A DNA stretch of 64,000 nucleotides. It comes from Ectocarpus siliculosus. Taxonomy: Eukaryota > Sar > Phaeophyceae > Ectocarpales > Ectocarpaceae. Location: contig FN649751.1 in the NCBI GenBank assembly GCA_000310025.1, forward strand, positions 6,208,871 to 6,272,870. The letters are read 5' to 3'. This document shows positions 7,701-60,813 of the stretch, in pieces (the first letter of the stretch is position 1; each line of letters starts with the position of its first letter). Below the pieces are notes generated by a model that searched no databases, was not told where the DNA came from, and saw only the letters and a program-made list of their open reading frames with translations. The position numbers and the translations under genes are program-made.

Positions 7701-10700
7701 CATGCATTGTAGCCTCCGTATCGTTAGACTTGACTCGTCATCCTGGCTTTTGACGGGATAGAGCTCTTTGGAGATGGAGGGGGGAGGGAGAGCACTCAGG
7801 TTTTTGCGGTTTGTCTTGAGGCTATTTCTGGTGGTCGTACCCGCCGCCTGGACCGAGAATGGTGGAGGGGCGACTTAGTTTTTATGCGGAGGTCAAACTC
7901 ATCAAGGGGGGGCTAGGGTTGACATGCGATTTTTTCGGGTCGCGCGCGCATGCACCGTGTGGTTGGTTGTGACCATCGCCGCAAGCGCGGACGTTTGGGG
8001 GTCTCTCTTACGGTAAGTGACCCCTTGTGGTAGCCATCCCTGTTTATTCTCGAGCCGCTTCCAACAGCACGAGAGCGCGGGGGGGGGCGTACTCATTTGT
8101 TGCTTGCCGTAGTCATTTGACCATTGACCACGCGTCCCTTTCGAGACGGAGCACCGTTCCTACACCTACTAGAGACACCACCAACATTTGGGAGCTCTTT
8201 ACGTTTCTGCCACAAACTCCATAAAAATTTCTTGCACATCTTATCCCCGTCCTCTAGGGCCTCTTGTGCCCACCATCTATCCCCAATTATCGCGATCGTT
8301 TTTTCGCTGTTGTCTAATTTACCAAACTTGTCCATGTCACACCCTCTCTGTCTCATTTCCTCCTCGAGATCCTCTCTTTCCTTCCTGTACAACTCACACT
8401 CCCCAACTATGTGGGGTCTACTCTCCTCCGATTTGCCACATGGACATGTGTGTCTATCCTCCTCTTCCTCTCTCCTACGGCTGGTATACCTCTTCCTCCG
8501 TTCTGGCAAGTCCAGATCGCCTACTCGAAATTGCAATTTCAGCTTTTTCGCATAGTCCATGGGGCCGTCCAAGTACTTCTTCATCCCTATCCCTTCTTTC
8601 AACTTCCCGTATATCTCCAAGTGGTCTTCGCTTCGTACCTTCTTGCGAAGGGTTGTCTCCTCCCTACTCTCTAGCATCTCCTTGACTTTCGTCTTGAACC
8701 CCCCGAACCCTTCCGTGTCCAACGTCTCCTCCTCGTCTCCTATCTCCTTCCAAACCTTCTCTACCACCTTGTCCCATCTGATTCCCTTCTTCCCTGGAGT
8801 CGCTTTTCCCCAAGCTGCCTCGTCAACCATGGCTGGTAGTCTATCGTCCGACATTCTACTTACCTTGTACTGCCACTTCAACTTCTGCATGTCTCTCTTT
8901 GTTTTAAGAGAGTACATTCCCAATTCTGCTCTCAATACAGTGTTGCTCGTTGTGCTTGAACATCCTAGTATTTTCTTGGCCGCTGCCATCTGCACCGTTT
9001 CCAGCTGCTTGACGGCCTTTTCGTTACCTTCCCATATCTCTCCTGCATACTCTAGCTTAGGTACAATCACCTTCAAGAGAATACACCTCTTAATCCTAGT
9101 GTCTAGGTGTGGGTCCGTAAGGATCTCATCCATCTTGCCTATCTGAGCTTTACCCTTCCCAATCAACTTCGCTATGTGTGCGTCCCATGAGCACTCCTTC
9201 GAAATCTCTACTCCCAGGTACGTATACTTGTCTACTACCGGTAGTTCTTCCTCCCCCCATTTCCATTTGAATTCTACGGGATTTTTCTTATCTTCGTTAC
9301 AGACCACTACTGCGCATTTTCCTACGTTCGCCGACAGTCTCCATTTTCGGGTGTATCCTACCGCCGCATCTATTTGTTCTTGCAACCCTTCTGGTGTTTC
9401 GGATACCCCCACGAAATCATCTGCAAACATCAGTCCGGACACACTCTTTCCCTCTACTTGGACTCCCTGTCTTACTCGCTTCAACCGCCCTTATCAAATC
9501 GTTGATGTAAATCTTAAAAAGAGTGGGTGACATCGTACAGCCCTGTGCGACTCCTTGGAGTATATCCACGTACTTCGAAATTTCCCCATCCAACATCACC
9601 GCACTTCTTGTGCATTCTGTCATCTTTTTCAACATCCTCCACATTTTCCCCCGGATGCCGATGTCCCACATCTTTTTCCACAATCCATTGCGCCATACGG
9701 TGTCGTAGGCTTTTTGTATATCGAGGAAGAAACAGTATGTCGTACGCCCGGCGTCTTTCCTACCTTGGATGATTTTACTCAACGTATATACATGGTCTAC
9801 ACAACTACGATCTGGTCTAAATCCAGCTTGTCCTTCGCTGATCTTTTGTTTCCCCTCCAACATGTCTCCCATTCTATTGTCTATCATCTTGCCAAACAGT
9901 TTCCCCACTGTGCTCAACAGGGTTATCCCTCTATAATTCCCCGGGTCAGCTTTATCCCCCTTTTTGAACAGGTTCACGACTACTCCTTCTCTCCATCTCT
10001 TCGGCGCGTACTCGTGTTTCCATATCCAGTTGAATATCCCGGACCAACATGTTAAATCATCCCCTCCCCCCCCTGTTTCAAAAGCTCGTTCACAATTCCA
10101 TCAGCCCCTGCCGCTTTTCTATTCTTGAGTTTCGCTACGCAGTCCTCTACCTCTTCTCGTGTGAACTCTCCCTGCAACCCGTCTACATCACTACGTTCCC
10201 TCTGAGATCTTTCAACGTTTTCCTCTGCCCACGAGTTGATTTCCTTCTCAAACTCCGAGTCGAAGTTGTCGTTGGTGGTGGGTGTCCCAAGTTTGCGGTA
10301 GTGCTCTACTAGTACTTCCCTCTTTCCTTTAGAACTGCTTACCATCTTACCCTCGGCAGATCTTAGTGTCGTTATTTCCGTGTCTCCCCCTCTTTTCTTG
10401 CCCACTATCCCTTGAATTCCTACCCACATTTGCTTCATCCCCCCCTCAAAATCTTCGTTAGTCTTTTGGACTACTTCCTCCCACAACCCTTTCTTCTTCT
10501 TCACGACCAACTCCTTCACCCTCTTTCTACTTTCAACATACTCCTTCCATCCTGCATCTGCAGCGCGGGGGGGAGGGTTACGTGAAATCGGATGCGACCG
10601 GTTGTATTCCTCCCTCCTATCGCTCTCAACCCTGCTTTGATTGCTTTCGTGAATCGCATGTAAAGGGTGCTTGCTCTGCAATAGTCGTGGTACCTCTTTT

Positions 10701-60018: not shown

Positions 60019-60813
60019 GGGGGCGGGGGGCGGGAGGAGGGGGGGGGGGGATGAAATGGAAAGGGGCGCCGTGTGTGTGCGTGTGTTTCTGCAAAACGCA
60101 CCGGCTACGAAAATTGGAAGGCCACAGACGCACGGGTTTTGCGGGGAAAAAAATAGCGGGGTGAACAAAAAACCGTCTTGAATATTGGTTGTGGTTGCTA
60201 GTCACAGATGGACTGGCGGAGGAAAATCCCTGCCTTTTTCAGACGCACAAGCAGGCAGAATAGGCGACGACACCGCCGGTGGCATGGAATCGGGGCTCTC
60301 GGGCACTTGCAAACGCGGTCCAACGGAGGCACAAGACGATGGATGAGAAGGAGAAAATCATCCCGCGTTGCGGGCAAAAGGGGCCCAGAACTTGCACGCA
60401 TTCAGGCCCGCCGCGGTAAGTACTGCGGTGGGGTCAGGAAAACGTGTTTTGATTAAATAGCCGATGCCTGCGCGTGCTCTGCACAGGGTATTGTGTCGTG
60501 CACGATGTTTTTGCCAGCAGGATGCCGAAGAGCCAAATCTGGAACAACGTACGGAGCGGTGCTCCGCATGCGCGCATGCTGTTCGCACACGCGTGAAATC
60601 CCACGACTGATTGACTGGTCTGAGACGCTCGTGCGTGGGATGCGACAAGCCGATAGAGGGTACACGGGCGATGGAATGGATCCATCATTTCACAGAGCGA
60701 TGGACTCATCATATTATTGGGCGATGGGTCCATCATACCCTTGGAAACACAACGGGACATCTACGGGCTGTGGGGACTCGCGGGCAAAAAGACCGCTGAG
60801 CACCGCACGAGCA
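60019..60813. other. Intergenic stretch, possible weak exons only
   Basis: A segment 60204-60416 starts after an AG and ends at a good donor (GCG|GTAAGT), but its frames are short or Arg-rich and no domain is seen. I do not call a gene. Confidence 0.3.

Follow-up and report, generated by a model that had tools for sequence, protein, structure and literature searches.

A LINE and a short partner family of Ectocarpus siliculosus that probably insert into pre-existing C tracts

Were the runs of C that adjoin many repeat copies in the genome of the brown alga Ectocarpus siliculosus there before the copies arrived, or did the copies bring them? The question is raised by a 64,000-nucleotide stretch of contig FN649751.1 (positions 6,208,871 to 6,272,870; hereafter the window), which we analysed together with the 189 Mb Ectocarpus assembly to which it belongs. 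Two repeat families of the window have a common 3' end: F1, a long interspersed nuclear element (LINE) that encodes a reverse transcriptase, and F2, of about 600 bp. We have good confidence that F1 and its partner F2 insert by target-primed reverse transcription into pre-existing C tracts, with C on the element strand. The preference of F1 for mononucleotide C tracts is strong, and F2 very probably shares it. The C tract mostly forms the left part of the F1 target duplication, together with up to 12 nucleotides of the following sequence. The 3' end of the element is fixed directly at the tract, and copies nest in one another's tracts.

C-runs at occupied and unoccupied sites

In a self-comparison of the window, F1 appears as two near-identical inverted copies, A and B. 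An earlier note on this DNA, based on its letters, had proposed that LINEs and their relatives insert at C homopolymers and had named five duplications beginning with a C-run. All five are present; their positions, and those of a further copy at 44132-44223, are as follows:

8088-10561, minus strand: copy A, F1 LINE, 5'-truncated, with a reverse transcriptase fragment and its 3' end at 8088
10562-10573, minus strand (10573-10562 in element orientation): 5' target duplication of A, C7-GCGCT
8074-8087, minus strand: 3' target duplication of A, C9-GCGCT, in which the duplication C7-GCGCT is 8074-8085
21450-24060, plus strand: copy B, F1 LINE, 5'-truncated, with RVT_1 in an open frame
21429-21449, plus strand: 5' target duplication of B, C11-TCGCTATGGG
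24061-24084, plus strand: 3' junction of B, C14-TCGCTATGGG, containing C11-TCGCTATGGG
29206-30226, plus strand: F2 element with C-run-headed monomers of 66-69 bp at its 5' end
29192-29205, plus strand: 5' target duplication of this F2 copy, C10-TTTC
30227-30253, plus strand: its 3' junction, C23-TTTC, containing C10-TTTC
44132-44223, minus strand: diverged short F2 copy, with the duplication CCCGCGTACGT at 44223-44213 and 44142-44132
47965-48087, plus strand: short F2 copy, 5'-truncated
47955-47964, plus strand: its 5' target duplication, CCCC-TATGCA
48088-48105, plus strand: its 3' junction, C12-TATGCA, containing CCCC-TATGCA
59424-60031, minus strand: F2 copy, with C12-TCCTCCC on the 5' side (60050-60032) and C14-TCCTCCC on the 3' side (59423-59403)
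59219-59401, minus strand (approximately 59401-59219 in element orientation): F1 copy inside the 3' C-run of the preceding F2 copy, with its own 3' C15 at 59218-59204

The duplications of the F2 copies at 29206, 47965 and 59424 reach 4, 6 and 7 nucleotides past the run, respectively. Some details of the earlier note had to be revised. At 59221-60018 the duplication stands, but what had been taken for a single copy consists of two insertions, one nested in the other: an F2 copy (60031-59424) and, in its 3' C-run, a later F1 copy. The element end had been given as ATGAGTA(C); most F1 copies end in ATGAGTACG and most F2 copies in ATGAGTACA, and the C-run comes after this end.

The association extends to most copies in the genome, as the earlier note had expected. 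The 18-mer at the F1 end has 120 forward-strand matches, 118 of them with C5 within 4 nucleotides, and the 20-mer at the F2 end has 928, with C5 at the same distance in 814. At 418,336 background positions, taken on both strands and with the window's own copies unmasked, C5 lies within 4 nucleotides downstream at 1.1% and C4 at 2.6%. Forward matches are listed once per place and reverse matches several times, and the F1 places on both strands were counted by hand; among the matches listed, C5 is present in 53 of 58 places. We also read 42 F1 copies singly, namely a first set of 20, a second set of 20, and A and B. The 3' side is readable in 41, of which 39 have C4 within 5 nucleotides and 37 have C5 within 4.

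C-runs are also found at the other end of F1. In the first set, here the 20 genomic copies with A and B, the 5' flank consists of N in two cases; among the 20 readable copies, a C-run of at least four adjoins the start of the element in 19 and one of at least five in 18, against a background for a 30-nucleotide stretch of 10.9% for C4 and 4.3% for C5. The second set comprises 20 of the 23 places listed in one stretch beyond the first (three were left out); the 5' junction falls within the fetched stretch in nine of these copies, and seven of the nine have a C-run. The target duplications of F1 vary in length. Both ends were counted as readable in 17 first-set copies, ten of which have at least 3 common nucleotides past the C-run (L011, L012, L014, L017, L019, L020, L022, L024, A and B); this count omits L010, L023, L025, L026 and L027, in which N adjoins a junction. 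Duplications of at least 5 nucleotides past the run were seen in four (L072, L074, L077 and L084) of 15 further short F1 copies, which had been picked for their 5' C-run and are excluded from all rates.

That unoccupied sites carry the tract, as the earlier note required of a target, could be read directly at two loci. We searched with the joined flanks of six insertions (A, B, L014, L017, L022 and L024) and scored 40 of the 119 candidates. The joined flanks of copy B occur uninterrupted across the junction in at least 36 other places. The best 20 of these 36 were fetched, 19 being read in alignment and the twentieth (L099) separately, and all 20 have C8-C14 at the insertion point of B, with AGAAAGA before the run in 18 and TCGC after it in 19. 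The tract was therefore already part of the repeat into which copy B inserted, and the two parts of this repeat now lie on either side of the element:

21350-21449, plus strand: left part of the repeat entered by B
24085-24129, plus strand: right part of this repeat

A second, independent empty site is provided by L019, which is inserted in one unit of a tandem duplication; the element-free unit has C6 followed by GTGACCCCCC. The C tract thus predates the insertion at these two F1 loci, as judged from paralogous empty sites; none was read for F2. Among the candidates scored, the joined flanks of L014, L017, L022 and L024 matched their own loci only, and those of copy A had no match.

Nesting is not confined to the window copy at 59219. 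The 3' C-run of an earlier F2 copy is the insertion site of six F1 copies (L011, L012, L013, L021, L057 and L084), and the genome contains 29 F2-to-F2 junctions, in which an F2 3' end is followed by C5, at most 20 further nucleotides and an F2 5' end. With the duplication of the tract, every insertion turns one C tract into two.

Structure and kinship of F1 and F2

The open frame of copy B (22078-24057) spans 659 codons from stop to stop and contains an RVT_1 domain (E = 2.3e-33), and the best matches of its protein among solved structures include the R2 and LINE-1 ORF2 proteins. The reverse transcriptase is therefore of the type found in elements without long terminal repeats (non-LTR). A very short 3' untranslated region is a feature of the RTE / RTE-X clade, and it is present in copy B, where the stop codon (24055-24057) is followed by 3 nucleotides and then by the C-run from 24061. 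F1 would be placed in RTE / RTE-X by its likeness to a published description. Lengths of F1 copies range from about 60 nucleotides to 2.6 kb with a single 3' end, i.e. the 3' end is fixed and the 5' truncation variable. A search of the genome for the RVT_1 family led to two longer copies, L069 and L070. The open frame of L069 has 1,077 residues from stop to stop, some flank included, with an AP-endonuclease-like stretch that looks like the C-terminal part of such a domain (Exo_endo_phos, E 0.01; Exo_endo_phos_2, E 0.016; both below the curated cut-offs). Outside this genome, a protein scan and a 29-base pattern, both applied to viral contigs, gave no relatives.

No open reading frame of at least 250 amino acids lies wholly within the F2 copy at 29206-30226; a minus-strand frame (28488-29363) overlaps its start. 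The 5' end of F2 consists of tandem monomers of 66-69 bp, each with a leading C-run and then GGTGTTTGCCATCGGGG (29208-29339 and 59885-60030). The 3' end common to F1 and F2 was aligned over the last 70 or so nucleotides of four F1, six F2 and two third-family sequences. We conclude that F1 is a non-LTR retrotransposon and that F2 is its partner, sharing its 3' end and probably using its machinery. The third repeat family has the same 3' blocks, with AAAACATAAGAGTAC before the C-run, and was seen in the upstream parts of L044, L071 and L081. In the window, ATGAGTAT at 45165-45181 is followed by C9. Given the third family and the site at 45165-45181, more families may use the same target. One further site in the window has a similar end:

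38253-38279, plus strand: related 3' end GGCATGCACAACATGAGTA, then C8

The copy L067 has a chimeric 3' end, F2-like sequence followed by the F1 end, perhaps as a result of template switching or gene conversion.

The end of the F1 RNA may itself be structured:

23995-24060, plus strand: 3' terminal 66 nucleotides of F1, predicted closed RNA domain, at the start of which ultra-short copies begin

In the predicted fold of these last 66 or so nucleotides, GAGUAC at the 3' end is paired with an upstream GUGCUC, and for one F1 sequence the fold is better than shuffled sequences (z -3.29). Despite the common sequence blocks, it is no better than shuffles for F2 (-0.51) and for the third family (-0.55), and the closed 3' domain is therefore only suggested. 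Nine of 40 F1 copies, five in the first set and four in the second, start at the base of the predicted domain, at a distance of about 60-68 nucleotides from the end (L015, L017, L019, L020, L028, L052, L055, L058 and L062), and there are at least 20 ultra-short F1 places with a 5' C-run genome-wide. It seems that reverse transcription stops, or that the RNA is cut, at the base of this domain. Three very short copies (L015, L028 and L036) have another peculiarity: the 6 nucleotides that separate the 5' C-run from the element recur in reverse complement past the 3' C-run, offset by 1 in the case of L015, so that the duplication is inverted rather than direct. No inverted duplication was seen by eye among the 15 further short F1 copies.

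Some features of the window concern the assembly. N gaps lie at 4104-4203, 30313-30412, 47603-47919 and 59005-59104; C/G runs stand directly before three of them (4096-4103, 30305-30312 and 47592-47602), and similar stretches occur across three (3868-4051 and 4477-4660; 30227-30310 and 30453-30536; 58413-58712 and 59105-59404). The stretches that are alike across gaps are probably unmerged contig ends, and with gaps placed at C/G runs and alike flanks, C tracts probably break this assembly. We did not count 58413-58771 as a further copy: it resembles the nested insertions on the other side of the gap at 59005-59104, with the same order of parts in a noisy sequence, and probably represents a duplicate contig end of low quality. 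At 14852-15172 there are three tandem copies of a unit of about 105 bp, 86-96% alike.

Target, tail or by-product

A number of observations weigh against a C-tract target, or at least against its generality. C5 within 4 nucleotides is missing from 114 of the 928 forward F2 copies and from five of the 58 F1 places, all five on the reverse strand. Four of the latter are L009, L010, L057 and L061; in L010, L057 and L061 the C-runs are interrupted or lie slightly further from the element end, and L009 and L061 are the two misses for C4 among the 41 readable F1 copies. L009 has neither a C-run of four nor a recognisable duplication. Three of the 20 fetched F2 copies (L035, L043 and L045) have C3 or C4 in place of C5. 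At the 5' side, L050 and L067 are without a C-run, the former having N in its 3' flank and the latter being the apparent F1/F2 chimera, and the F2 copy L039 has C3 only. Four F1 copies with C-runs on both sides share 0-1 nucleotides past the run (L013, L016, L018 and L021), and in L015 and L028 the sequences after the two runs are mismatched. The query that retrieved the empty copies of B contained the C-run itself, the flanks making up most of the match. L069 is apparently 5'-truncated, and the endonuclease is thus seen only in part.

For F2 the case is weaker. Of the 20 fetched copies, 12 are readable at both ends; four of these have common nucleotides past the run (L031, L042, L043 and L045) and eight have none (L030, L032, L033, L035, L036, L039, L040 and L044). 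Moreover, full-length F2 starts with C-run-headed monomers, so that a 5' C-run is no proof of a target tract. The argument for F2 is carried by its 3' rate, by the truncated window copies and by the 3' end that it has in common with F1.

One alternative is that the C-run belongs to the element as a tail, either encoded or added by the reverse transcriptase. Such a tail would account for the run directly after the 3' end of most copies, and the C-runs at both ends of full-length F2 copies could be their own. In F1, however, the 5' end is preceded by a run as well, which in many copies is followed by the same nucleotides, and the fixed ends that precede the 3' run, ACG in most F1 and ACA in most F2 copies, indicate that it is not encoded by the element. 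An added tail would lengthen the 3' run, and the lengths argue against this: in 21 pairs read by eye (16 F1 and five F2, two of which, L035 and L036, are without a direct duplication past the run) the mean is 9.7 on the 5' side and 9.2 on the 3' side, with a median difference of 0. The lengths at the two ends of these 21 copies are not significantly correlated (Spearman 0.22, p 0.34), which a tail would explain and which counts against the target. The run was evidently not copied letter for letter; the missing correlation, unexpected for exact copying, is compatible with nicks within the run and with subsequent slippage. The tract in all 20 fetched empty copies of B and in the empty unit of L019 is a further objection to a tail. 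We thus reject the tail for F1, on the empty sites and the run lengths, and for F2 only by analogy, and regard it as very improbable overall; in line with the earlier note, the C-run of F1 is target DNA: it is present at both ends and at empty sites and is not longer at the 3' end.

Two other explanations appear even less probable. If insertion were random and C tracts survived as harmless DNA, selection after insertion would produce the pattern, and C/G runs of at least eight are indeed common (0.60 per kb against 0.045 expected from composition). Yet A/T runs reach almost the same density (0.52 per kb), while 39 of 41 readable F1 3' junctions have C4 within 5 nucleotides, and selection for harmless regions would fix neither where exactly the run lies at the junction nor on which strand. 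The C-runs could also be created by homopolymer errors or contig joins, an artefact hinted at by the three of four window gaps that start directly after a C/G run and by the resemblance of the stretches flanking three gaps. However, in ten of the 17 F1 copies the sequence continues beyond the run and there matches the opposite flank of the element, and the empty copies, too, continue beyond the run. A more serious competitor, although we consider it rather unlikely, retains the C tract as the site of insertion and changes the reason for it: the endonuclease would have low specificity, and C tracts would be selected because only an exposed G-run 3' end pairs with C residues at the RNA end. This would explain why the homopolymer matches on one strand only, and the same logic was proposed for Zorro3 and poly-A (PMC1965478). 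The last nucleotides of the element are mostly GUACG or GUACA without a C-run, so a read-through RNA would be needed; the annealing choice and nick specificity are inseparable by sequence alone.

Returning to target-primed insertion into an existing tract, the following steps can be envisaged. An endonuclease would nick the G strand at or within the left part of the run, and the 3' end of the G-run would prime copying of the RNA from its fixed end. The last 66 or so nucleotides of this RNA may form the predicted closed domain, at the base of which the 3' end would lie exposed. The other strand would be cut 0-12 nucleotides past the run, presumably in this order. As the element ends without a C-run, the primer may have as its partner a C-run of the donor locus into which transcription had read through. 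Pairing between the G-run and such C residues at the RNA 3' end probably helps, and their full overlap with the primer would leave the run no longer than before, as observed. The suggestion of the earlier note, that the RNA 3' end is primed on a G-run, fits the geometry of the junctions.

Known systems and significance

Known targets of LINEs include ribosomal DNA, telomere repeats, some microsatellites and poly-A.

The closest known case in behaviour is Zorro3, a LINE of Candida albicans whose insertion into poly-A tracts was deduced from empty sites (PMC1965478). As in F1, the target is a pre-existing mononucleotide tract, annealing between tract and RNA end has been proposed, and the elements begin and end in the tract (PMC1965478). 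In contrast, the poly-A of Zorro3 is also its RNA tail, whereas the poly-C of F1 is not encoded by the element and lies in duplications together with the following nucleotides. Bov-B and its short interspersed nuclear elements (SINEs), of the RTE clade, prefer a T stretch with TA (PMC13295347). They resemble F1 and F2 as a LINE and SINE pair with one insertion signature and a homopolymer beside the nick (Tn-TA), and also in 3' repeats that are thought to influence the nick or priming (PMC13295347). Unlike the C tract, which is inside the duplication, the T stretch of Bov-B lies upstream of the TA cleavage site. Togen, at (TG)n, likewise has a simple-sequence target, but this is a dinucleotide and its kin are NeSL-clade elements with a restriction-like endonuclease (PMC4640811).

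In Ectocarpus itself, a 2025 survey described the RTE-X LINEs RTEX-1 and RTEX-2 together with RTEX-N1, a non-autonomous element of about 600 bp with more than 6,000 copies, the origin of whose 5' region was not found by its authors (PMC12477816). Like F1 and F2, these are an autonomous LINE and an abundant partner of about 600 bp with a common 3' end (PMC12477816). By this description, F1 and F2 are probably the RTEX families of that survey. The words homopolymer and poly-C have no match in its main text (PMC12477816). Our literature search, mostly at the level of listings, gave no description of a C-tract LINE. On balance, and with less assurance than for the C-tract target itself, we lean towards the view that F1 and F2 are the first LINE/SINE system that targets mononucleotide C tracts, and a self-seeding one: insertions would duplicate their landing site, copies would nest and chain head to tail, and tract length together with the closed RNA 3' domain would set the register of priming.

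A poly-C target would represent a new endonuclease or priming specificity that is open to assay, and the elements concerned probably form the most abundant group of transposons in a model brown alga. Two wider questions are touched by it: how insertion is guided by the pairing of primer and RNA, and how C tracts, which break assemblies, accumulate in a genome. If this reading is true, the family spreads the very sequence that it needs for its own insertion.

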